From: Sphaerolaimus hirsutus
Lineage: Eukaryota; Nematoda; Chromadorea; Monhysterida; Sphaerolaimidae
Direction: 5' to 3'
Length of the DNA: 64,000 bases
Assembly (NCBI GenBank): GCA_964036195.1
Contig: OZ038460.1
Location: 7,195,504 to 7,259,503, forward strand
Below the pieces are notes generated by a model. It made no database searches, had not been told where the DNA came from, and saw nothing but the letters and a program-made list of their open reading frames with translations. The position numbers and the translations under genes were made by a program. Shown piece by piece: positions 17,001 through 52,731 of the stretch (its first letter is position 1; every line of letters begins with the position of its first letter).

Positions 17001-18968
17001 CTCAACTACAGATCCCGCGGCTCATCAGTGCTGCTCTACTTTTTCTTCTCGATTTACTTCGCCTTTCTCGCCGGCATGCTCGTGTTTCCCGCATTCCGTT
17101 TCGCCCGGATGCACGTTGATGGGGTCAACGACGCTGAGAGCCCTCTAAAAAAGTACGCTCGTTCTTGCCGGTATTTTTTTGGCTAGTAAAAATCGAAAAT
17201 CGATCTTTTTGCGTTTGCGAAAAAATTAATTTTTTAAACAGATCAAATCAAATTTTCTCATTGTTTTTTGATCGGATTTTTTTCGAAAATGAAGATTGTG
17301 TAAATATGTCAAGTCTCGGACAATATATTGTTATAGGAGTTATATATTGTGGTCATATTGTTTCAATATCACTGTGGAGCCACGGGATAGCATTATAACC
17401 AATTGTTTCTTTCAAAAATATCCATTTTATGTCGAATTATTACGTATATCCCTTTTTGTCGAACGTTCGTGACTTCTAGTGAAGTTCAGCATGGCATTAA
17501 GCACTTTATTGAATTTTTGTATTCCACAGGGTGCTGCTGCAGGTCGGTTTTTTCGCTCCGTTGGCCGCCGTGGCGTTTTGGCTCCGCCCCCTTTCTTATC
17601 GGATACTCACCAGGGACCCCCCAGTGTTGGTTGAATTTTAAAGGTTTGATATTGTAGTCGGTTTTATTTATTTCAATTTGCAGTCATTTGGGTTTCATTG
17701 CAAAGCTGTATTGGAAGTGTGTTGCTTTAGCGGCGCTTACAAGGTTTTTAAATATGACAGGTCACGACAATGCTCAAGTTGAGAAAATAGATCGCAAAAT
17801 AGAGTTGAGATATTCGCAATAATGTGTCCCATTTGGGATAAAAACGTAAATATGTCCGGTTTGCGTCACGTGCACCGCTAGTCATAATTCATTCACATTG
17901 ACAACAAAAGTGTAACACATGAAACATTGTGGTGACTTCTAAACCGTCTGACCCCCTCAAAGTCCCACCAAATAACCACCCCCTAAATACCCGCAGGATA
18001 ACTTCATCTCAACTGGACAGCGTGCGCTTGTGGCTGGTCGTATTGGCCAGTCTGATGCGTTTCTGCTTGGCGCGCACTTACCTTCAGGCGTATTTGGACG
18101 GCGCCAGAAAACGTGTGGAGGCCATGCGAAAGGAATCTGGCCGGATCAATAGCGCTGAACTGCAGAAAATGGTCACTTTTTTTGTTTGTTGCCCTCAGGG
18201 GTTTTGTAGATTTGGACCCCTGCCAGATAGCTCGCGGATTTGGGGGGGATACCCCACCCCCTCCCCACTAAACCCCTGGTGGCCTTGAAGTGCCAAATAA
18301 CTATTTAGAAGAATTTCAATTCGCAGATCGCTCGCGTGTTCATGTACGTGTGCGTGGCGGCGCTGCAGCTGCTCGTGCCCATCGTATTGATTTTGATGCT
18401 CGCGTGTCTGCTCAAAACGCTCGGAGCCTATGCGTGGCTGGAGGCGTTCCCCGCGCCCGCCTTTTTACAGACAAGTAAGTTTATGTACGTGTAAGGGATG
18501 TAAGTTTATGTAGATGCCTAAAATCCCCAACTTGGGGGATTAGTCACTGGGGTCTTGAGAAGACATCAGTGGGCAATGGCGTAGCCAGGAGTTGGGGGGG
18601 GGGGGTGGGCGGCCGCCACCGCCCATTAACGGGCCAGACAAAAAGATGTACTTTCTATCATCTCACATCAAAGATGTCTTTCATCACAGCTAATTTCAAT
18701 TCCCTGCTTCAACAACTCCGCAGTGCCGTTTCCCCCAGTGCGTGCCATCCTGGCCCAGTGGTCCGCCGGCAGCGTAGCTTCCGCAAATGCGACCACAGCG
18801 GCCTATGCAAAAACCGATCTGGCCGCCTCGCTGGCCCAACTGTCCCACTTGTTCAGTGCTTATGTGAATCGCGGACTGTTTTCTTTCGGCTTGGTCATGA
18901 CAATGCTGGTGCAAGTGTCGCTGGAAGTGATGGGTTTGATCTACTGCACGCAGTTTGTGCCGCAGTGA
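14022..18968 (+). CDS. TMEM161: TMEM161-family multi-pass membrane protein, 11 exons
   Basis: Exons: 14022-14024 (only the ATG), 14072-14172, 14466-14564, 16117-16359, 16601-16800, 16874-16937, 17012-17152, 17530-17625, 17997-18171, 18327-18474, 18724-18968. Sum 1515 bp, 504 residues, near the usual ~480-490. Family hallmarks: LLGFHLVLTLIS near the N-terminus, RWLLAQGLTRYLHPSTESLR, FRWLVDFTFAALIVYALSE, NLSIIWCTVVICF, FPAFRFARMHVD, DSVRLWLVVLASLMRFCLAR, YLQAYLDGARKRVEAMRKES, GRINSAELQKMIARVFMYVC and a hydrophobic C-terminus ending CTQFVPQ. The start was chosen because human TMEM161 begins Met then a hydrophobic LxG-like segment, and ATG directly followed by GTAATT fits a 47-bp first intron. 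Molecular function is poorly known; TMEM161B affects membrane excitability in vertebrates. Confidence 0.93.
14222..14443. mobile_element. Foldback element in TMEM161 intron 2
   Basis: Inverted arms built on AGTTGACACATGTG and GACACGTGAAGxCxAAATC with matching words on the opposite side. About 220 bp long with a short loop. Confidence 0.65.
14853..15406. mobile_element. ~550 bp inverted-repeat element in TMEM161 intron 3
   Basis: Ends ATACAGGGTGGCCCACG and CGTGGGCCACCCTATAT. Both arms carry GGTACATTTATCTAC and the word GTTTCAAT, with the central part repeating milder versions. A non-autonomous TIR element. Confidence 0.65.
15523..16011. mobile_element. hAT-like element rich in TTACGTATACTT words, TMEM161 intron 3
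   Basis: Right end GGTACTTTTAACAACTCTG resembles the CAACTCTG end of the hAT-type element at 33533-34349. Internal words AAGTACTCGAGTACAGAAAA and ACGTATACTTTGAAAAAGT recur at 19310-19470 and near 56800. The left end is decayed and no target duplication was found. Confidence 0.5.
16391..16540. mobile_element. CCCTGTAAAATG-family foldback element, TMEM161 intron 4
   Basis: Arms GCAGTCCCAAGCCTTGTAAA and its inverted copy GGCTTGGGACCGGCACC, with TGTAAAATGTC words between. It takes up most of the 241-bp intron 16360-16600. Confidence 0.7.
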
Positions 18969-20933: not shown

Positions 20934-23900
20934 ATGTCGGAACAGCCTGCCCAAAATGGATGCGGGGAAAAGAGTCCTGAAAGTTCCGCGACCGATGTGA
21001 AAACCTCTGAATCGATGAAACGGCACCTGGATGGGGCGGAGCCAAGTGCAGAAACTTCCCCTAAGAAAGTTAAGGTCGATATAGAAAGCCCTTCGAAGGA
21101 TGTGAAAGTTAATAATGAAAGAAATCCAAATGGCGTAGTTGATAATGAAAGTCTTTCAAACGGCGTGAAAGTTGAGAAGGACAGTCCATCAAAGAATCTT
21201 AAAATTGATAATGGAAGTCCCCCAAAGAATGTGAAGGTTGATAATGAAAACCGGAAACGGACCGTCTCAGACAATAATGACGACCCACAAAGAAATGCAA
21301 CAGCGCAGGGCGGGGAAAATGCAGGTTTGCTGCTTTTTTCCCGTTTTCTATATTTGCCGAGTGATCCGGGCGCCGCGTTTGAAATGCTCGTTATTTCTGT
21401 ATTTCGAAATTTTGTATGTAAGTTTGACGTGTAATGTCTGATTGCTGTGTGGGTAAATGTCATTTCGTGTGGAAATTTCGATGGAGTTGCGATGAGTCCT
21501 TCGATAGATGCGTAAGCGGTGTTTTATCTTTGGGATTCTCGCGAACGTAAATATTTACAAAACCAATTTCTTCGCAACAATTTGCCTTTCCCTCGAAATA
21601 TTCCTGAAATATATAAAAAGAAAGAATAATAAAAAATCCATTTAAGCTGCGCTGGAAGACAGCGACGATGAAATGACCCTGGACGACATCGTGAAGGATG
21701 CCGAGCACAATGCCCAGCTGCAGGACGACGCCAGGGCCGTGCTCGCTGCCGAGGAGGAGAACATCTGCACCTACAACCAGGTGGGTACCTCCTAACTGAT
21801 GTTACCGAATCGGCCAGCTATCTATCTGGCTTAACCCCCCCCCCCGAAAAAAAACACAAAAATTCAGCGATCTATCCCCCAGGAGGGTGATTTGCCTAGG
21901 CAATAACGCACATGAACTAGTGATTTTGAAGGTGGAATGGGCGAAAATTGGCGATTTTGAGCAAAAATTTGGTCAAACTATCTGAAAAAATTGCTCCAGA
22001 TGGGCGATTGTGGGGGGTTCAGGCAGTGGCGTAGCCAGGATTTTTGAGCGGGGGGGGGGCGGATTGTATACGGAGCCCGGCGAACGGGGGGGGGGGGGCG
22101 GCGCCCGCCCCCGGCTAGGGCCCATTCAGCATCAAAGCCCATTCCGCATGTAGACTCATTATAGACACATTCTGCCTGCAGAGGTAAGAAAGGGGGGTGG
22201 GTAACACCACCCCAAACCGCCCAACTATCTATCTATCCCTGGCGCAATTTTTTGGCTACATTCCCTTGAACACCCCCACACCGGCAAATTGCCTAGCTAT
22301 CTAGCTATCTGGAGCGCTTTTGAGCAATTTCACCCTGATTTTCACCAAAATTCCCTGATTTTCCAACTTCTTATAGATTTTCACCTTCAAAATAACTAGG
22401 TCATGTGTTTTATAACCTATTTTCAACATGCCAGGTATAATTAAATGTGTTCCGGGTCAACATGCGGGATGGGTTTAGATGCGGAATAGTGCACTGCCCC
22501 CGCCCCCCCCCACCCCCCTAAAATTAGGTCCCTATTATAGCGGTATGGAGTTATGGCGCTGGCGCCATTTGTAGGCGCCGCGCCATGGCACGATTGGCGC
22601 TGGTGTTGGCGCCAATGTCTACTAAAAAGAACATAAATATTTATAAACACCTAAAATGTGTGAAAATTGGCCCCAAATTGGTTATTTGTAGCGGTTGTGC
22701 ACTCCTAAACTGTACAGAAAAATAAGAAAGATTGATGGCGTGTAAATGCGCGCTTGCGCGCAAAAAATTTTTGAACTGCCGGCAAAATCGCTTCCTGGAA
22801 GTGTCATTTCATGCATAATTCTTGTCCGGCCCGGGAAGGGGGGAGGCGGCCGCCCAGTATCGATAGTTGCCTCCGAGATAGATACATACCTGAGCGGCCT
22901 CCGAGATAGATAGATGGCTGGGCAATTTGGGGGGTTACCCTCCCCCCATTTGGAGACCCCTGATTTTCCACCTACACTAATTCCCCACCACAGGGCTATC
23001 GCGACCGCCAGGCGCTATACAGCTGCATAACATGCCGCAAATCGCCTGAACAGCCCATCGGCGTGTGCTACGCGTGCAGTTTGAATTGTCACGATGGGCA
23101 TGACCTGGTCGAGTTGTATACTAAAAGACACTTTCGGTGCGACTGCGGCAATAAAAAGTGTCCTCAGGGGTCCGAGTGTCGTTTGTGTCCGGTGAGGTTT
23201 GGGGTTGATGGATATCGCGCATATTTTGAATACAATCAACAACGTAAAAATTATTCAATCCTGATGGAATAACATCCGTGAACATCTGGTACAATTCCTA
23301 GACCCTGTAAACTGTAACTGGTGCACTGTAAAATGTCAACTGTCATGCAGTGTCAAAATTCATGTAAAATGCCCTGTAGAATGTCAAATGTTCTTTTATT
23401 TTTACCATTGACCAGTTATTTGATATTTTACATGGCATTTTACATGCCCTTTGACACTTGGCAGTAAAATTTACATTTTACAGGGCATTTTACAAGTCTT
23501 TTGACACATTGCATTTTATTTTACATTTTTCCAGAGCATTTTACATGGTTTAGGAGTGACTTCTGGTGATGATGCATAAAAATTGCACATTTACTTTCAA
23601 GTGCAAATGCATTTACAAGCATTTCGACACATTTATAATTTGTCAATAAATGCAATCGTGCAATATCTAATCGTTTCAGATCAAGTCTGCCGGCAACGAC
23701 GAGAACACGTACAACCAGAACTTCCTGGGCACCTACTGCACCTGCGAAAAGCCGTACCCCGATCCAGAAGGGGAGGATACCAATGATTGCATGGTTCAAT
23801 GCAATTTGTGTGAAGATTGGTTTCATACCAGGGTCTGTTTTCTGTTGATTTCTTTTTGTTGCGTTTACTTTTTATTTGACGTAAGCTCTATTATCGTGTC

Positions 23901-25149
23901 ACGCGGAAAAACCTAACCTAGTTTGTGGTTAAAAATTTAAAGAATTCTTTGCATCTGCAGAGATATTTTTATTCATTCATATCAGCTTGTTTCACGTACG
24001 GAATTCGTATCATACGTATTCATATGCGAATCAATGTATCGAATTTGTACCACAGCATGTGAGTGCAGACGGGCAGCCGCGAACATCCACGGATTACGAA
24101 GAAATGACGTGTCCCGCTTGTCTCAACAAACACAAGTTTCTCGGAATTTATGCACTGCGACTGTGTTCTGAAAAACAAAAGGTGACTTCATAGAGCCACA
24201 TTTTGTTGGAATTTTTTACTCATTAAAATCAAAATTATATTCCATGCTGAATCCTCCCCACATCTAGTCGGACAATGCTGGTAATGACGACTGTACTGAC
24301 GACAAATCAAAAAGTGAAAATGATAAAATTTCACTGGATCCCGAGGCCAGTGTATGCTCAATAGCAGATGCGGATCGAGAGAAAATGGACGATAAAGTAA
24401 CAAAAGAAGCAATGTATTGGCCAAGCGCCTGGCGAAGCAAACTGTGCCTATGTAAAAGCTGCCGGGTAATTTTAACCTTTATATTACTGAATTTTACATT
24501 TTGCGCGTTTTACAACTGGTTTTTAACTCGCGTAAATTAATAGTAGGTATTATAATACGGTAAATTTTGTCTAAAATAAATCGAAAGAAATAATAAAAAC
24601 GTCGCATTTTTTTCACAGGAAATGTACTCGCGCGAGTGCGTGGAGTTTCTGCTGAGCGCCGAGGACCCGGTGGCCGCGCACGAGGCTAAAGGTGCCGCCA
24701 AGACAGCCGCAGAGGGCGACCCCTATGAAAACTTCTTGAAAAAGCAGCCCATAACTGTACAGAACGTTATGGTGCAAGGTACTTCTGAGTGCTGGTGCCA
24801 CTACCAGACCCTGTAAAATGACATGAAAAGTGCTAAATGTCATGCCTTTTTTACAAGTCGTTCGACACTTTTCATGACATTCACATAACTTTTGACACTT
24901 TGCATGACATTTTAAAGGCTCTTTAAGTGGCATCTGATTTTGCGGTGTCTAAACTCCTTTGATATGACATTCATCGATTTCATGTTCGCAGGCTACGCTT
25001 CGTTCCGCCAAAATCTCACGCAGTTTTTGTCGGGGTTCAGCAGCGCCGGAAAAGTTGTCACTCAGCAGGACGTGAAGGAGTTCTACGACAGCCAACGCGC
25101 AAACATTCCCAATTTGGTCCGCGGCACGCCGTCACACACGTGCAAATGA
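20934..25149 (+). CDS. UBR7: UBR7 E3 ubiquitin ligase (UBR box plus PHD), 8 exons
   Basis: Putative E3 ligase. In vertebrates UBR7 acts in the nucleus on histone H2B and in histone handling (family knowledge). Exons: 20934-21324, 21647-21780, 22994-23191, 23680-23832, 24056-24181, 24268-24465, 24619-24778, 24992-25149; 1518 bp, 505 residues. UBR box: GYRDRQALYSCITCR, ACSLNCHDGHDLVELYTKR, FRCDCGNKKC. PHD-type finger: YCTCEKPYPDPEGED, VQCNLCEDWFHTRH, MTCPACLNKHKFL. The C-terminal UBR7 region has YWPSAWRSKLCLCKSCREMY. Human UBR7 is about 425 residues. The excess is mostly an N-terminal exon 1 extension of imperfect Lys/Val/Asp/Ser-Pro repeats (SPKKVKVDIESPSKDVKV onward) that looks disordered and could include a nuclear localisation signal. 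Confidence 0.95.
23288..23565. mobile_element. CCCTGTAAA-family foldback element, UBR7 intron 3
   Basis: Left arm GGTACAATTCCTAGACCCTG, right arm ending GGTTTAGGAGTGACTTC. Several tandem TTTACATGGCATTTTACA segments lie inside, suggesting internal duplication. Confidence 0.6.
24794..24935. mobile_element. CCCTGTAAAATG-family foldback element, UBR7 intron 7
   Basis: Begins GGTGCCACTACCAGACCCTG, ends TTTAAGTGGCATC. It starts 16 bp after the exon 7 donor and fills most of the 213-bp intron. Confidence 0.7.
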
Positions 25150-38865: not shown

Positions 38866-41800
38866 TCACTTAGTCCAGAACTTGTGTCTATTCGCGTCGA
38901 TGGCGGCCACCACGGTGCCGGGGGCGATCCTGTTGTGGAACTGGGTGTCCACGTGCGACCCGTAGCCCGTGTAGGTGATCGGCGGCACGATGCTGTACAC
39001 GTAGCTCCACTTGCCGCTGCCCGACATCTTGTCCTGGGGGGGGGGGGGGGGTTGTGTGGTTTTGAGGTAGATTTGTTGGTGTTCGGGAAGTGATTTAGCC
39101 GTAGGTTTGCCTAGTAGTAAGGTGTGTTATAATTGCCCCGATTTAATTTGGGTGCTTTTATGTACATTTAAGGCATTACTACTTTGATAAATGGGACCGT
39201 GCACAACAGTACACCGAAATTTGGGAAAGCCTTACATCTATTTTGAACACATTCGAGTTGACCAGAATATGGAGTCTGTCAACTACTGTTGCAGACTATC
39301 AGAAATGATTCACTCGGGTAAACTAAAATTTGTTCAAAACAGATTTATGAGTTTCCCAAGTTTTGATGGTGTACTAGTGTGCGTGGCCACATTGACGCCT
39401 CACAGGCGGTGTAGCACCGTCATGGAATTCATGACATAATAAATCATCAGCTGTTTATTTCCGCAACCATTCTCCAGTGTCACGTGTGGCGTTTATTCGT
39501 AAATCCACAATTCATTCAACAACCATACCCTACCCGTGCGAGAGCGATGTGCCCGCAGTAGGGGTAGTAGATGCCCATGTTGTCCATCTCGTCCCTGTCC
39601 GGCGCGGTGACCGGCTTGCCCACCAGCGCGCGCGGGCCCGCGTCCATTGTGGATGCGTGCCCCACTATTACCGTCTGTGGTTGTGTTTTGTTGACAACTG
39701 TGTAGTGACAATGCTCTTTGGATAAAAATTTACGCACGTTGGAATGTTTACGTTGGAAGAGTGGAAAATGCTACAAAAATAATAATTGAATATAGGGCGG
39801 GGTGAGCCTCCAAGGTGTTCAGAACTATGATTCGGGTGTTGTTTTCACATTTGGTTTTGTTTGAGTTATGCTCTGATATTAAAATGTTGCTCATGTTTCA
39901 ATAAAATTACTACTGTCAAATGAAAAAATGTGTGAAAAGATTTGTGAAAAATAGAACGGTAGTCTCCAATAGAACGACATCTCCATCTCCACATAAATCC
40001 ATATGAAATTGATGTTTTGAGTAAAATTTCTGCATTTTTTACTCATTTCTGACCAAAAATACCCCCCAACAATAGATTTTTGAATATTTTTTCATCGTGT
40101 GATCAAAAACTCGATAATGCCATAAAATGCTTTTCTGTCATCGAATCTTTTTGTCATCGTTGCACCTCCAATTGAACATGGAAAAAAGTTAAAGAAAAAA
40201 AAGAATCTTCTATTACAATAAATACGGTATTTATCTATGGGACCGTAAATGTACAACGAACCAGTCCGGTGCTGGGAGCCACGTTCGCTATATAACCTAC
40301 GGCACGGGTCACCCTCTGGTAGTAGGTGCTGAGTTTCTCCTCTAGGTTGACCACCCCGCCGCAAGTTGGCCGTTCGCCAATTTTGTCCTCCTCGTCCCTG
40401 GCAATTACCTGTGTATTTGGGGGGGGTTCCAGGTGGGGTGGATTTTTTTTCGCTGCGATTAACGTGGGTATTTTAAGGGGAAGACATTTGACATGTATCT
40501 TTTGGCACTGCGCGCGCTGCTAACACCACACTTGTAGCATTAATGCTACGATTACAGCTCGGGCGTAAAATTCCAGCGTAAAATTCCATCGCAAAATTGA
40601 TTACATAAAAGTGGATGATGATACAGGTCTGCAATTTTTCATGGACAATATGTTTATCAATACCATCATTGTGACCAAGGGTCATCGTCCACGGTCACTT
40701 CTATTTGATTCTGAAAATTCAAAAATTTCTATTTTATGCTGCAATTTTACGCCAGCTGAAGAAAAATCAATTCTACGCTATGTCATTGCATGCAATCACC
40801 TGGCGTAGAATTGACTTTTCTTCAGCTGGCGTAAAATTCCAGCGTAAAATAGAAATTTTTGAATTTCCACAATCAAATTGCAGTGACTGTGGATGATGAC
40901 TCTCGGACACAATGAAGGTATTGATAAACATATTCTCCATGAAAAATTGCAGACCTGTATCATCATCCACTTTTATGTAATCAATTTTGCGATGGAGTTT
41001 TACGCTGGAATTTTACGCCCGAGCTGTAATCGTAGCATTATGGAGCGATTACAGCTCGGACGTAAAATTCCAGCGTAAAATTCCATCGCAAAATTGATTA
41101 CATGAAAGTGGATGATGATTCAGGTCTGCAATTTTTCATGGATAATATGTTTATCAATACCTTCATTGTGACCAAGAGCCATCGTCCACGGTCACTTCTA
41201 TTTGATTCTGAAAATTCAAAAATTTCGATTTTACGCTGAAATTTTACGCCAGCTGAAGAAAAATCAATTCTACGCTATGTCATTGCATGCAATCACTTGG
41301 CGTGGGTGATATATCGAATGATTTTTCTTCAGCTGGCATAAAATTGCAACGTAAAATCGAAATTTTTGAATTTTCAGAATCAAATAGAAATGACCGTGGA
41401 CGATGACCCTTGGTCACAATGAAGGTATTGATAAACATATTGTCTATGTCAAATTGCAGACCTAAATCATCATCCACTTTCATGTAATCAATTTTGCGAT
41501 GGAATTTTACGCTGGAATTTTACATCCGAGCTGTAATCGCAGCATAAGGGTCGTTTACACGGTTTCATGTGCCGACAAAAAAAATTAAGTGAGAAAGTTC
41601 CATATATTGGAATAAAGTTTCATATCTGCAAGGAAAGGTAGTGATAAGAGAAAATATATATAAAAACCTCTAGGTAACTTCAGTTTTACTGAAATTTTGA
41701 TGAAAAATAATTTTGAGTTAGAGTTTGATTCGAGTTTACAAGAAAATATACTACCGTATTTCCTCGAAATACCCCCCGGGGGGTGATTGTTTCATAGTGG

Positions 41801-44113
41801 TCCCGAGAGGGGGGGGGTTAAACGAGGGGGGGGTATTTCGAGGGGGGGGGTTATTGTTTCACAAGCAAATTTTTGAAAACCAAGTACGAAATTGTCGTCT
41901 GAAACGTACGCAGACGTCGAAAAATGCAACAAAAACCGCCATTTATAAGGTTCTGTAGACTAATATTAGTATGTAGATGGTATGTACACTGTTCTAACGT
42001 GACACCGACATTGTTTTAACGTGTGTTCTGCAGTACACTGAACACAAACTACAGTTATTGTCATGTACGTTCCCTTTACACTCAATTTGGGGGGGGGTAT
42101 TTCGAGGGGGGGGGGGTGATTGTTTCATAGTGGTCTCGAGAGGGGGGGGGTCAAACGAGGGGGGGGGTATTTCAAGGGGGGGGTATTTCGAGGAAATACG
42201 GTATGCTAGAATGGCAATTTGCTCATTTTTTGCATAAAATTTCTATAAAGGTGGAGAGAAACATTGACAGTTCCCTGTTTTGTCCCTTCACAACTACAAA
42301 TCCATCATTAAAACAAACATTCGGCCCGAGGCAAGCGTAAGTGGGGTCGACGCGGATGCCGCGCTGCTCGAACAGCTCCTGGGTGGTCAACAGCGCCGGC
42401 ACTTTGCTGTACCAACCGCCCCAGTCAAACAAGGCTGCGAGCGTATTGCGGGGTTTTCCAATGGATTTTGTTTTTCTCCTCAGTTGAGTGACTCTAAAGC
42501 CGGATTTACAGCATAACGATCAATAGGAGGTGATGCGACAAATTCAACGTCACCGAAAAATTAGTTATTTTCATTTTTTCAAGTTTTATATTAAAAATTA
42601 ATGTTTGATAATCAATATTTTGCAAAAAGACAAATAACTAATTTTTCGGTGACGTTAAATTTGTCGCATCACCTCCTATTGATCGTATGCTATAAATGTG
42701 CCTACGCACACTGCACAGTGACTTCGGTGAAAACTGAAATTTTTACAAATGCAAATGATTCAACTCGGTTGAATGATTTTATTTTTTGTAAATTTGAATT
42801 TCAATTAATGAAAGTTGAACTTGAAAATTTGATTACTAAAACACATGGCATACAGACAAGTGTACACTGGATGTCGCTATGTCGCACTTTCAATTTGTAA
42901 TTTCTAATCAACTTTCAACCAAAGTACCAAAGATCGAGGCATGACGTCGAAAGTTTCACCTTAATTGGGTGAAAGTCCCACCACTACAAGACCACCCCAA
43001 TCAACAGTCTTAACGGACACGTCTCGATGGCGACGTTCGCCTGGCCGGTGGAGGCGCAGGCGCGCGCCAGCGCATTGGCTGTCTGCACGCAGCGCAGCGC
43101 CGGCGAGCTGACGATCAGCGACGGCTTCAACTTGGCCATTAGGATGCCGCGACCCAGCATCTGTGCAGTTTGGTGGTTTTAGTTGACTTTTTTGTGGACT
43201 AAGTTCATTTCATCTTGGAATACCGTACTTCTTCTAATAGAACGGCACTTACAAAAATTGACGAAAAAAATAGAACGGCGCTCTTCTATTAGAAGAAATA
43301 CGGTAAAGCCACTTCGAATTTTTTGCCCCCTCCCTATCTGCATTACTGTTGACTGAGACGACACCCCCTGATAATTCACCTGCGCCGTGAGCCCGCCCAG
43401 CTCGGTGATGGTGGTGTCGTTGACGTAGTCGGCCGTGCCGCCCGACCGGTGGCCGGGCAGCCGCGCCGGCTGGTTGCAGTCGTACAGCACGTATCTGCAA
43501 AGTCACCACGCTTTTCTCATTGGGCTCGTTTTCAAGCCAAGTTTAAGTGCGGGCACACCAACCCTCCGTCGGTTCGAAAGGCTTTGGACAGGTATTCGGG
43601 GAAGATTCGATCTGTTCGCTCGGCCGCGCGAACGAACATGAGAACCTGGTGCGGTGTTTAATTGGCCCGACACGTTTTTTGGGAAGCTAGATTCACTGTG
43701 TCTGGCGCTACATTGCTTTAAGCCGCCCGGGGGTAATCCTACGCCCTGTAAAACACCCTGTAAAATGTCAAGTGTCTTGTAAAGTGTCTAGAGTCCGTAA
43801 AATCTCATGCAAAATGGCAAACGAACAGTAAACCGAAAAATTAAAGTTCACATGACCTTTGACACTTTACATTTTACAGGGTCTAGGAATAACTTGGTTG
43901 ACCGGCAAAAGTATAACTACCTACAGCCACAACGAATCAGTTGTCATCAACAACCAGTTGCCCGAAGAAACATGTCATGCTAATTAAATCGCGCCCCTGG
44001 TTCGCAGCGGCCACAGGTGCAGTTGACGGCACGTGGGCAGTGTACCAGGCAGACTGCGGCCCATCGGCACCTTTCGGTCTGTTTGGCGATTTGATCGCGA
44101 ATTTTGCGTCCAT
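38866..44113 (-). CDS. TULA/UBASH3-type histidine-phosphatase-fold protein with altered RHGE motif
   Basis: Exons in coding order: 44113-43955, 43645-43557, 43494-43380, 43160-43019, 42434-42319, 40408-40262, 39674-39534, 39033-38866; 1077 bp, 358 residues. The order matches the C-terminal phosphatase domain of UBASH3/TULA proteins: VLMFVRAAERTDRIF, GHRSGGTADYVNDTTITELG, SLIVSSPALRCVQTANALA, ETSLFDWGGWYSKVPALLT, TYYQRVTRAV, VIVGHASTMDAGPRALVGKP. The first catalytic motif, normally RHGER with the phosphorylated His, reads RAAER (codons CGC GCG GCC GAG CGA), while the second His (GHAS) and SPALRC Arg remain. Activity is therefore doubtful and a binding or scaffold role is possible. No UBA or SH3 domain precedes it; exon 1 starts MDAKFAIKSPNRPKG and was inferred from phase. 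An upstream exon cannot be excluded. Confidence 0.88.
40541..41545. mobile_element. Two adjacent ~500 bp palindromic elements, TULA-like intron
   Basis: Units 40541-41038 and 41043-41545 each begin GATTACAGCTCGGxCGTAAAA and end with its inverse, and each is itself a near-perfect palindrome built on GTGGATGATGATxCAGGTCTG and AATTTTACGCCAGCTGAAGA. They are tandem copies of the same foldback element in the intron between the exons at 42319 and 40408. Confidence 0.85.
41752..42203. mobile_element. G-rich TACCGTATT-family element, TULA-like intron
   Basis: Exact ends TACCGTATTTCCTCGAAATA and TATTTCGAGGAAATACGGTA. The interior is tandem GGGGGGTATTTCGAGGGGG blocks and a spacer shared with 51840-52070 (ACGTACGCAGACGTCGAAAA). 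Confidence 0.85.
42511..42690. mobile_element. 180-bp foldback element, TULA-like intron
   Basis: Arms of about 60 bp starting GCATAACGATCAATAGGAGG and ending CTCCTATTGATCGTATGC, including TAACTAATTTTTCGGTGACG. Confidence 0.8.
43220..43304. mobile_element. Short TACCGTATTTCTTCTAAT-family element, TULA-like intron
   Basis: An 85-bp inverted repeat: TACCGTACTTCTTCTAATAG ... CTATTAGAAGAAATACGGTA, with TAGAACGGCG in both halves. Related copies at 51107-51239 and 59644-59973. Confidence 0.8.
43729..43893. mobile_element. CCCTGTAAAA-family foldback element, TULA-like intron 1
   Basis: Left arm GGTAATCCTACGCCCTGTAA and right arm ACATTTTACAGGGTCTAGG, within the 309-bp intron 43646-43954. Confidence 0.6.
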
Positions 44114-46577
44114 TTTGGGTTGTTTTTATCTGTTTATGGCTTCCTGTGTGGGGTGGGTGCCCGTTTGCGCTTTTTCGTCAGATTTCTGGGATTTATATTT
44201 GCAGTTGAATGGATTTTGTTGCACGAATGGCTGGTTAACCCTATTTTTATGTGATTTTTAGTGATGTTAGCGATGAAGTGAACCAGAACTTTCTGCAAAT
44301 TTGTTTAACATTCCGTGTTTCAACATTTTTCGAAATCACATATTGTCAAGTTGAATCAATATAGAAATTTTGATTTAATAGTACAAATGATTTGCTGAAA
44401 TTCAAGTGTAGACATTTGTATCTCAGTGGTGTATTTCAGCTATGTCACTTGGCTAGACGTCATGCACTACAGTCGACGACCACCCATCCAGATAATCTGG
44501 TCTGGAGTCAATTAAGACAGTTATACTCGGCGTACGTGATACTCTGCCCTCGCACTGATTTATGTCTCGTGTTGGAAGCGTGCCAATGATTTTTAAATCA
44601 TGCGATTTCCATAAAAATATGAAAAAATTCATTGATGTGTATATGTTAATGAATAACATTATAACAACAATCAATTTTGTCATCTTTTTATGAAACTCGG
44701 ACGCGTTAACCATCGTTGGCACACTTCCAGCGGGAACCACGCGTGCAGGGTGTAAAGTAACCGGAGTATACTGTTCGCCGCCAGCTTCTGTGCCGTCAAA
44801 TCAAAAACCGCTGTTTTCGTAAATAGCTCGCGTGCAGTTTTACGTCGTTCGCATTTTTTTATAAGAGACACTCAATTAAAAGGTCCATTCAGGTGCGGGT
44901 ATGAATCAGTGCAAAATATTACACATGTAAAAAACGTAATAATTACATGCCAACCTACAAATGAGGCGGCAATTTTTTGCGTTAATTCAGACTCGCTAAT
45001 TAGCTGCACGATCAGATAGATAGGGTGATCAGAACCAGTCAATGCAAACAATGGAAGCATAAGATAGCGAATGTCGGCGCACAGGTGCTTGCCGATCGAA
45101 CCAACCGACCCGCTTTGATTATTGCTGCCGCGATGGAAACATCGGTGCAGTTTGCATCGTTGGGGAATCTTGCGCCGCACCGAGGGCTGGCCAGGTAGAG
45201 TTGGCCAAATAACAGAGAAATCCAACCGCCAAGCCCCAGCGCCAGGCATTTTGTTTCTGGCGCCAGGCAAAAATAGCGCCTAGTGCGCCACAGCAAAATA
45301 CCGCCAAGCGCCATGGCGCCTTTTCCTTTGGCGCTAGCGCCATGGTGCTGTTCCATCACTAGGCAAGTGTCAAATGTCATGATAAAATGACATACAATTG
45401 CCATGCAAAGTGTCAATTAAAGTTCAGTAAAAAATCTTTTATTTTTTCCTTAAATTGACATTTCACGTGACATTTGACACTTGACATGGTACCCTTTACA
45501 GGGCTCATGGTAGCCCCCAGCCCCCCCCCCCCACCAATCCTCTCAGCCCCCCACCCGCCGCTGCTACCGGGCGTCCGCGTGTGTCAATCAGCGCGGCGGC
45601 GGCGGCGGCCGTGGGAAGGGCACAGGTGCGCTGATTGCGTGACGCACGTGATGTAAGCTGCATGCACCTGGGCGGCATGATCCCGATCGTATTGTGTTAC
45701 CTGTTGTCTCGCCGGCCCGAGCCCAAACCCACAGGCCAATTTGCAGCTGATCGACTGGGCTGGGGAAGTGGTTAAGTGTGTACCTAGATACTTGATTGAT
45801 ATGTGGTCGAGATATCCAGAATCTAGGATAAAAGCCAACGACCTAGGTACTTTTTGTATTGAGTATTGTCTTTTGTATTGTAATTAGAAACTTTGAAACG
45901 ATATCTGATATCGACATCAAATGTCGCAAATTCTTTCAAATCTTTCACAGATCTTTCACAGATCATTCTTTCAAAAAATCCTTTGAAATATGGTACATCG
46001 ACATCAACCTAACAAGATACCACAATGTACCCAATTTAATCCAACCATAGGTGCACTGCATCACTTGAATCTTAAGTATATATACTCCAGCGACATTACA
46101 CCTTACAATGAAATCTACCATATCCCATCTGAATAAAAGAACAAACATTAAAAAAATTCATCATATTTATTAAATTGCTTTGATAAATATGATGAAAATT
46201 TTTTTATGTTTGTTCTTTTATTCAGATGGGATATGGTAGATTTCATTGTAAGTTGTAATGTCGCTGGAGTATACACGGCTGGGCTTTTAAATTTCAAGCT
46301 TAAAATTCCGCGCCAAAGCTCGCGTGGGACCCATTTCTGATTGCCTGGCGCACGGCACAACTTTCGATTCCGCCCGCCCGGCCCCGCTTCTCTCAATATC
46401 CCATGTCGTCTGTGTTTGTCTGATCGAGTTGTCATTTTCGCGGCTTTCGAGTCTCAAAGCGCAAATAGGGTTTCCAGTTCCAACTTATTGGGACTACGGT
46501 AGCGGGACAGAAGTAGCCGTTGAGTAGAGAAATGGGTGAGTTCTGATGCTATACCTCTTTGAGGGGGTACTCCCGAT
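44114..46577. other. TULA-like–receptor spacer, left part
   Basis: No gene recognised. Contains decayed GGCGCC-rich hAT material (about 45160-45359, ending TTCCATCACTA), a CCCTGTAAAATG-type fragment (about 45361-45515), C-rich sequence and a foldback element at 46079-46275. The ORF 44680-44871 (-), FTKTAVFDLTAQKLAANSIL, is unassigned. Confidence 0.4.
46079..46275. mobile_element. ~200 bp foldback element
   Basis: Arms TATACTCCAGCGACATTACA and the inverse before 46275 with almost complete pairing through AATGAAATCTACCATATCCC and TTCATCATATTTAT. Confidence 0.85.
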
Positions 46578-48127
46578 TAGTGATGGAAAAGCGCCATGGC
46601 GCTAGCGCCAAAGCAAAAAGCGCCATGGCGCTTTTGGCGCTTGGCGCTAAAACGCTCTGGCGCCATTGGCGCTTGGCGCCGGGATCTGATAAAGCGCCAT
46701 GGCGCTTTTGGCGCTTGGCGCCATTTTATGGTGGTGCTATTGGCGCCTGGCGCCGGCATTTTAAATGGCGCCAAAAAAGCGCCAACCATGACTATAAAAA
46801 TTGTTATAATACCGTGAAAATCGACAGTCCAGTTGACCAATTTCGAGAACAACTGTATAAGTATTGGTCAATATAAGGATTTTGGGGCCATTTATATAAA
46901 TTACATATTGATGAGGCAATATTTGAGGGACAAATGGATATAGGGACATAGAATAATAGCAGACATTTTAAAACATGTTTACTTTTTACTCAAGAGGTCC
47001 TCATATTTGAGTGTGGGGCAAATATTTTCTTGTTTTGCCAAAAAATGTGCTAGCATTATACCCACCAATTATGCTAGCATTATTCATTCATTTAAAGCCT
47101 CAACTGATAAACATTGATAACTTAAAGTTTATTTTAAAACAAGGGCATTTTATATCTTCTAATGGCCTCAAATAATGTCCCTTCTTGAATAGTTCCCCCT
47201 CAAAAAATCAAACGAAGTCATAATTCCCTAGCACGATTAATACAAACTTGGGCAACCAGGGCAATTAGCAAATGAACATTTACTCTGGGTATATGTATTT
47301 TTCGAGTGCATGTAAATATATTTTAACAATAAATTGCTTTGTATAGCAAAGGAAAAACACCATGAATTCTCAAATAAGTCCTCTCCGTAGAATACCACCA
47401 ACTGTTAGTCAAATGAGAAAAAAACGTCCCTTAAATAACTGCACCTTATAGCTGTGTGCGGGACAAAGAACTCCCCCATTGAACTCCCCCAGTCACAATT
47501 TTTGGCTGAAACATTTATCCTTGGTGATTTTAACAATGTATGAAACATTGTATACCATATTTACTCGAATTACCCCCCGGAGGGTTTATTTTTTCAGAGT
47601 GGAAATTTTGAGAGAAAAACGTGAAAAATGCAACAATAACCACCATTTATAAGTTTTTACAGCCTTATATAAGGATGTAGATGGTATAAACGATGTTCTA
47701 ACGTAACACAGTAAGTGTTTTGAACGTCTGTTATGCATTTCCCGGACCACAAATTCATAGGGCCCATTTTGAGGGGGGTATTTCGAGGGGGGGGTATTTC
47801 GAGGAAATACGGTAGTTGGTTGATTGAACTTTTATAGCAAAGGTGAAATCGACTACTACAACGTACGCGGCACGTCACAGTTATGAATTCATTATTCTAC
47901 AAATGAAATGCAGGAAGTTTTTTTGGCGCTGGCGCTATTGGCGCTTGGCGCCATTACCCTCTGGCGCCATTGGCGCTTGGCGCTGGGGTTCAGAAAAGCG
48001 CCATGGCGCTTTTGGCGCTTGGCGCTATTTTGCTCTGGCGCCATTGGCGCTTGGCGCTGGGGGTCAGAAAAGCGCCATGGCGCTTTTGGCGCTTGGCGCT
48101 CAAAGTCTGGCGCTTTTTCCATCACTA
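46578..48127. mobile_element. 1.55 kb hAT-type element with GGCGCC arrays at both ends
   Basis: Ends TAGTGATGGAAAAGCGCC and CGCTTTTTCCATCACTA, flanked by exact direct 8-mers CTCCCGAT (46570-46577 and 48128-48135). Subterminal arrays (46590-46790 and 47925-48115) consist of GCGCCATGGCGCTTTTGGCG and TTGGCGCTTGGCGCC words. The AT-rich centre contains a nested G-rich element (47553-47814). No transposase. The target was the left end of a CCCTGTAAAATG-type element that continues at 48128-48284. Confidence 0.9.
47553..47814. mobile_element. G-rich TACCGTATT-family element nested in hAT element
   Basis: Starts TACCATATTTACTCGAATTA, ends GTATTTCGAGGAAATACGGTA. The interior CGTAACACAGTAAGTGTTTT is shared with 52230-52320. 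Confidence 0.7.

Positions 48128-48497: not shown

Positions 48498-52731
<4,234 letters not shown>

Follow-up and report, generated by a model that had tools for sequence, protein, structure and literature searches.

A TULA-like gene on the minus strand

The stretch of DNA analyzed here (the window, 64 kb; C16:7195504-7259503 of a nematode assembly of 348,482,957 bases in 762 contigs) carries on its minus strand a gene of TULA/UBASH3 type, the TULA/UBASH3 proteins being phosphatases of immune signaling. Reading the frames and joining the exons yielded seven exons between window positions 43645 and 38866, with GT-AG introns, agreeing phases and 303 open codons, in which the sole stop is the terminal TGA and no frameshift occurs. 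The GC3 of the joined exons is 0.84 vs. a GC content of 0.33–0.50 in the six introns. The exons, including a candidate for the first one, are as follows.

44033..44113, minus strand: tentative first coding exon MDAKFAIKSPNRPKGADGPQSAWYTAH, defined by an ATG and the weak phase-0 donor GTGCCG; no homology supports it
43563..43645, minus strand: exon with RAAER where RHGER is expected (R379, H380, G381, E382 and R383 of Sts-1); acceptor CACCAG, donor GTTGGT
43380..43494, minus strand: exon YVLYDCNQPARLPGHRSGGTADYVNDTTITELGGLTAQ, from the joined frames and TULA/Sts homology; GC3 0.97
43019..43160, minus strand: exon with SPALRCVQT, Arg462 kept; from the joined frames, the Pfam match and the alignment
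42319..42434, minus strand: exon with LFDWGGW, Glu490 replaced by Asp; its 3' end (donor GTTTGT) is the least certain boundary
40262..40408, minus strand: exon VIARDEEDKIGERPTCGGVVNLEEKLSTYYQRVTRAVGYIANVAPSTGL, whose initial part has no counterpart in the aligned relatives
39534..39674, minus strand: exon with VIVGHASTMDAG, which retains the second catalytic His, His565 (VGHAS); from the joined frames and the alignment
38866..39033, minus strand: last exon, ending in the TGA stop; at the C terminus it aligns with worm paralogs and not with Sts; GC3 0.93

Seven of the eight intact exons counted in the preliminary description of this DNA were thus recovered, and what speaks for the eighth, the first of the gene (best candidate 44113-44033), is an ATG and a weak donor. 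Between 43646 and 47000 there are 98 chains from an ATG to a phase-0 GT. The six that begin below 44400 use one of two ATGs (at 44113 or 43978), and all have weak donors; an alternative start is the ATG at 43639-43637, inside the RAAER exon itself.

The 303-residue spliced product matches Pfam His_Phos_1 at 1.4e-9, above the cut-off, and a phmmer search against PDB sequences returned 15 matches, comprising nine Sts-2, UBASH3A, UBASH3B and ecdysteroid-phosphate phosphatase (EPPase) chains at E values from 1.9e-23 (Sts-2) to 4e-20 (EPPase) and six weak ones (0.0049 or worse). Given these values, we regard the window protein as a real family member and not as a chance match, and by homology of the histidine phosphatase (HP) domain the gene belongs to the TULA/UBASH3/Sts type. 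The HP domains of TULA-2/UBASH3B/Sts-1 and TULA-1/UBASH3A/Sts-2 (PDB 3mbk, 2h0q, 8u5m, 3d4i and 5wdi) are alignable with window residues 3 to 267-274 of 303 (E 1.9e-23 to 2.6e-21), and the EPPase structure (PDB 3c7t) represents an invertebrate TULA-like HP domain. For the N-terminal part of the TULA/Sts proteins, no UBA, SH3 or 2H-phosphoesterase match was obtained on the minus strand between 43600 and 61499 (~18 kb upstream) in a Pfam scan that is insensitive to exon-split domains: in a control, it recovered the exon-split HP domain of the window gene itself only at E 0.0031, and upstream of the C2 paralog (see below) a scan of this kind gave no match at all and missed two of that gene's own HP exons, so that domains divided in this way could escape.

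Upstream of the TULA-like gene and divergent from it, two plus-strand exons (48498-49082) encode a nuclear-receptor DNA-binding domain (zf-C4) that resembles, by eye, the NR2E3/Hr51/fax-1 group. Elsewhere on the plus strand lie two TMEM161-like stretches at 18309-18965 (Tmemb_161AB, E 1.1e-13, and 1.2e-5, the latter below the cut-off), with more exons of this gene visible by eye from about 16040, and UBR7-like exons, also identified by eye, at 21646-25146, where a PHD-finger-like stretch scores E 0.0048 (below the cut-off). A dispersed GGCGC-rich repeat (GCGCCATGGCGCTTTTGGCGCTTGGCGC-like) is seen at several places between genes (45260-48110) and within introns of the C15 and C2 paralogs. Much of the intron 42318-40409 consists of stretches repeated in either orientation (40550-41530), recognizable from the same peptides in several frames. 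The 64-kb window holds no tRNAs and no Rfam families above the gathering score.

Active-site residues

The minus-strand exon at 43645-43563 reads VLMFVRAAERTDRIF (also given as VLMFVRAAERTDRIFPEYLSKAFRTDGG) where relatives have VRHGERxD. The codon at the nucleophile position (43627-43625, minus strand) is GCG, as first described, and the alignment places its Ala opposite His380; RAAE in place of the catalytic RHGE in a TULA/UBASH3-like protein is accordingly confirmed at the level of the exon. Both residues after the Arg are changed (H to A and G to A), but only the first change is diagnostic, since RHAE occurs in a His-bearing paralog on C15. GCG differs from the His codons CAC and CAT at all three bases, so a single read error is no explanation.

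The key histidine is identified as H380 (PMC10253181), and the catalytic quartet of HPs is described as two His and two Arg, in addition to a Glu base and an extra arginine (PMC10218301). The window protein lacks two features of this set, namely the nucleophilic His380 in RHGER (H380A) and the conserved Glu490, the proposed general base (E490D), and it retains the remainder of the quartet (two Arg and the second His) together with the extra arginine, i.e., R379, R383, R462 and H565. The second His, noted earlier as GHAS, lies in the VGHAS of exon 39674-39534. The Sts-1 residue numbers other than H380 fit the alignment, and the choice of which Arg is the extra one is presumptive. R379, E382, R383, R462 and H565 are common to the window protein and the TULA/Sts HP domains, and H380A and E490D set it apart from them; EPPase, an active enzyme (PMC10253181), likewise has RHGER and Glu, unlike the Ala and Asp of the window protein.

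The earlier statement that the rest of the fold is kept proved too strong, E490 being altered as well. Among the 35 columns invariant in six His-bearing relatives (Sts-1, Sts-2, UBASH3A, EPPase and the C2 and C15 paralogs), the window protein retains 26, the nine losses being H380A, W392Y, L408C, P429T, I482V, P486T, G487S, E490D and P522C. In leave-one-out controls with the same six relatives, losses ranged from 0/35 up to 10/45 (EPPase), which puts the 9/35 of the window protein slightly above the top control. Some relaxation of the gene is therefore possible; P486, G487 and P522 are among the changed residues.

Paralogs and the history of the histidine loss

When the genome was searched with the window protein, 11 matches were returned, of which seven fall in its own gene, one on C2, two on C15 and one on C16 at 9.82 Mb. 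With the C16 9.82-Mb protein as a query, 15 matches were obtained (seven to itself, three to the window gene, two each on C15 and C2, and a weak one on C6, E 6.12). A PF00300 search of the genome returned five matches and missed the window gene; the family counts given here are consequently lower bounds, and the genome may contain further TULA-like members. The cuticle-collagen N-terminal domain (PF01484), generally regarded as nematode-specific, has 56 matches in this genome, which makes a nematode origin most likely, vs. none in 14 control genomes, all of them prokaryotes, so that this comparison does not address specificity among animals. Relatives sought in GTDB genomes and in IMG/VR amounted to 20 and seven pattern hits, respectively, with none confirmed.

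The search for an active paralog, proposed earlier as a check, led to two His-bearing TULA-like genes whose activity is putative. The C2 paralog has RRLIVVRHGERLDTIF (RHGE), SPALRCVQT, LFEW and VVGHATT, and uses one GC donor; the C15 paralog has RLIVMRHAERVDRVF (RHAE), SPCYRAAQT, LFEW and VVGHAST. The models of both (312 residues for C2, 291 for C15) begin inside the gene and leave out the N-terminal parts. A second intact gene without the histidine is located on the same contig as the window gene, 2.6 Mb away (C16:9818603-9820928, minus strand), and runs from ATG to TGA over seven exons with GT-AG introns (292 residues). It carries MSDKTSTPRKHVVFVMRAGERMDRMF (RAGE), SPALRCVQT, VEPALADT (E490D) and VIGHAHT, and its protein matches UBASH3B at 5e-31. 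This sister gene keeps 28 of the 35 invariant columns, losing H380A, I482V, G487A, F489A, E490D, W494G and E533P, so that the nine losses of the window gene exceed its seven. Hence, among the TULA-like genes found, two have His and Glu and two have Ala and Asp at the same places, R379, R383, R462 and H565 being retained in both His-less genes. Another histidine-phosphatase gene, with VWVTRHGERQDVVD, is present in two closely similar copies, on C142 and C7; one of these contigs is small, and the copies represent either a duplicate or a second haplotype.

The paralogs are 32–37% identical to the window gene, with amino-acid identities of 31–43% across the paralog comparisons. In a seven-row tree the four worm genes are unresolved and the His-less pair forms one clade in 6% of bootstrap trees (AU p 0.106, not rejected). 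When EPPase is added, the worm genes fall on one side (98/96), the RAGE gene branches first (98/96) and the window gene groups with the His-bearing C15 and C2 genes; the starred branches of this tree force two changes, and a His-less clade appears in 1% of bootstrap trees (AU p 0.044, weakly rejected). The trees thus lean to two separate losses of the His, to which we give only moderate weight because the branches are long (1.48 changes per column for the terminal branch of the window gene, and 1.0) and both tree results are soft. A clade that would reflect a single loss is not supported, and is at most weakly rejected.

A single ancient loss, with the window gene and the RAGE gene descending from one dead ancestor as a conserved nematode pseudophosphatase branch, would account for the identity of H380A, E490D and I482V in the two genes and for their location on one contig; they also have phase-2 and phase-0 introns at nearby (but not identical) positions. 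The best trees keep the two genes apart, even if long branches soften that result, and we hold this history to be possible at a clearly lower probability than the main reading set out below. Somewhat more tentative is the converse proposal that two paralogs of one nematode genome independently underwent both His-to-Ala and Glu490-to-Asp changes with the other four active-site residues kept, and would thus represent parallel natural substrate traps, i.e., a dedicated reader of phosphotyrosine or another phospho-ligand working against two His-bearing paralogs.

A rather unlikely alternative is that of a pseudogene in early decay, duplicated, deprived of its nucleophile and drifting, with a frame that is open by chance. 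The 9/35 changed invariant residues, the long terminal branch and the introns filled with repeats agree with it. Synonymous divergence between paralogs (dS 1.0–1.6) is near saturation, which makes their dN/dS uninformative, and we have simulated neutral decay at seven divergences, starting from the present coding sequence and drifting towards intron composition (the simulation takes no account of indels, of multi-base mutations or of a replacement of His by Ala that preceded the decay). At 0.1 changes per site, the probability of zero stops was 0.0545 and that of a triple-base change in a His codon was 0.001; at 0.15 the two values were 0.0125 and 0.003. None of the seven divergences made both a triple-changed codon and an absence of stops likely, the product of the rounded probabilities staying below about 1e-4. 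The combination of the triple-base change with 303 open codons is improbable under plain neutral decay, as a frame that is still open allows less divergence than the codon change would require. Against decay stand, in addition, the GC3 of 0.84, the kept splice sites, the lack of any stop or frameshift, and the intactness of the second gene with the same His change. The initial description of an intact gene without the nucleophile is borne out by the open codons, the GT-AG introns, H380A and this second intact paralog.

Predicted function and precedents

Overall, the window gene combines a family sequence, a missing catalytic residue and an intact structure, and the reading that we favor (with a probability of roughly 0.55) is that of a functional, protein-coding gene with an apparently isolated HP domain, which belongs to the TULA-like family of nematodes and would encode a pseudophosphatase that likely still binds a phosphorylated ligand. 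Parts of this reading differ in strength. Loss of the ordinary HP activity follows from established chemistry and is very probable: the name-giving His of HPs is the nucleophile, and the three other residues of the quartet appear to stabilize enzyme-substrate interactions (PMC10218301); without His380 the phosphohistidine intermediate would not be able to form, and Asp for Glu490 would also alter the proposed general base. That the gene makes a selected protein seems almost as probable from its sequence. Binding of a phospho-ligand as its mode of action, suggested by the four kept active-site residues, has about even odds and is our best guess as to the function of this pseudophosphatase variant of the TULA-like family. 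Since R379, R383, R462 and H565 remain, the pocket most likely would bind phosphotyrosine or another phosphoester without turnover, and, next to the two paralogs with the His, the protein could take the part of a reader, a competitor or a shield. Strong binding to Syk and ZAP-70 in cell lysates is reported both for wild-type TULA-2 and for a substrate-trapping mutant (PMC10253181).

A comparable loss is described for flea salivary acid-phosphatase-like proteins, also of the HP superfamily, in which the catalytic His was lost after duplication (RHG His to Gly). These proteins show no activity and have biogenic amines and leukotrienes as ligands; a specific pocket takes up the amines, and the 'catalytic site' accommodates fatty acids (PMC10728186). 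As these ligands include amines and fatty acids, a history of His loss does not guarantee phosphate binding. The flea proteins belong to the acid-phosphatase branch and have lost the second His too, whereas the window protein is of TULA type and keeps it (PMC10728186).

Considerably less probable than decay is that the window protein still acts as an enzyme by another route, in which Asp490, the kept His565 or water would support hydrolysis at a slow rate or some related phosphoester reaction. In favor of this route, the arginines and H565 are in place, and Asp is the conserved acidic residue of branch-2 HPs (PMC10218301); the same source, nevertheless, describes the four quartet residues as invariant in all HPs and required for activity, and the flea proteins without the catalytic His had no phosphatase activity (PMC10728186). 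Least probable of all is an artefact of sequencing, assembly or annotation concealing a true RHGE or RHAE exon, a prediction failure of the kind that a 2023 review allows for in roundworm sequences without the His (PMC10253181, section 10.1), because the exon was taken directly from the assembly, three adjacent bases differ from His, a paralog (the RAGE gene) has Ala at the same position, and no unsplit RH[G/A]E is found in six frames of the 64 kb, a scan that a motif split by an intron would evade. The window contains four RHxE strings in its six frames, none of them usable; the one near the gene, RHSESS (43703-43692, minus strand), was rejected as the true motif, having no GT after the Glu and no family continuation. 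The original claim thus withstands the search for a single alternative exon supplying an unsplit RHGE.

Published work already contains hints of roundworm TULA-like proteins without the His: section 10.1 of the review notes members without His-380, leaving prediction failure possible, and most roundworm members are said to be without the N-terminal part with UBA, SH3 and 2H-phosphoesterase domains (PMC10253181), the annotated C. elegans paralogue being an isolated HP domain (PMC10218301). The window gene resembles these nematode proteins in its apparently isolated HP domain and in the loss of His-380; the earlier cases, as presented there, are annotated proteins, whereas here the genomic exon, the other frames of the window and the set of paralogs have been checked. 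Among the matches listed for the UBASH3/TULA literature, titles and abstract openings offered no other account of His-less roundworm forms. The present analysis adds genome-level support for two His-less genes, the companion change E490D, the kept active-site residues and the presence of His-bearing paralogs alongside.

TULA proteins are atypical tyrosine phosphatases, and in mammals it is difficult to disentangle their partly phosphatase-independent roles from catalysis. Genes of both kinds, with and without the His, in one nematode would provide a natural separation of binding from catalysis. Their occurrence also bears on the printed doubt as to whether TULA-like proteins of roundworms truly lack His-380 or only seem to do so through an error of gene prediction, and for both the window gene and the RAGE gene the assembly DNA argues against such an error.
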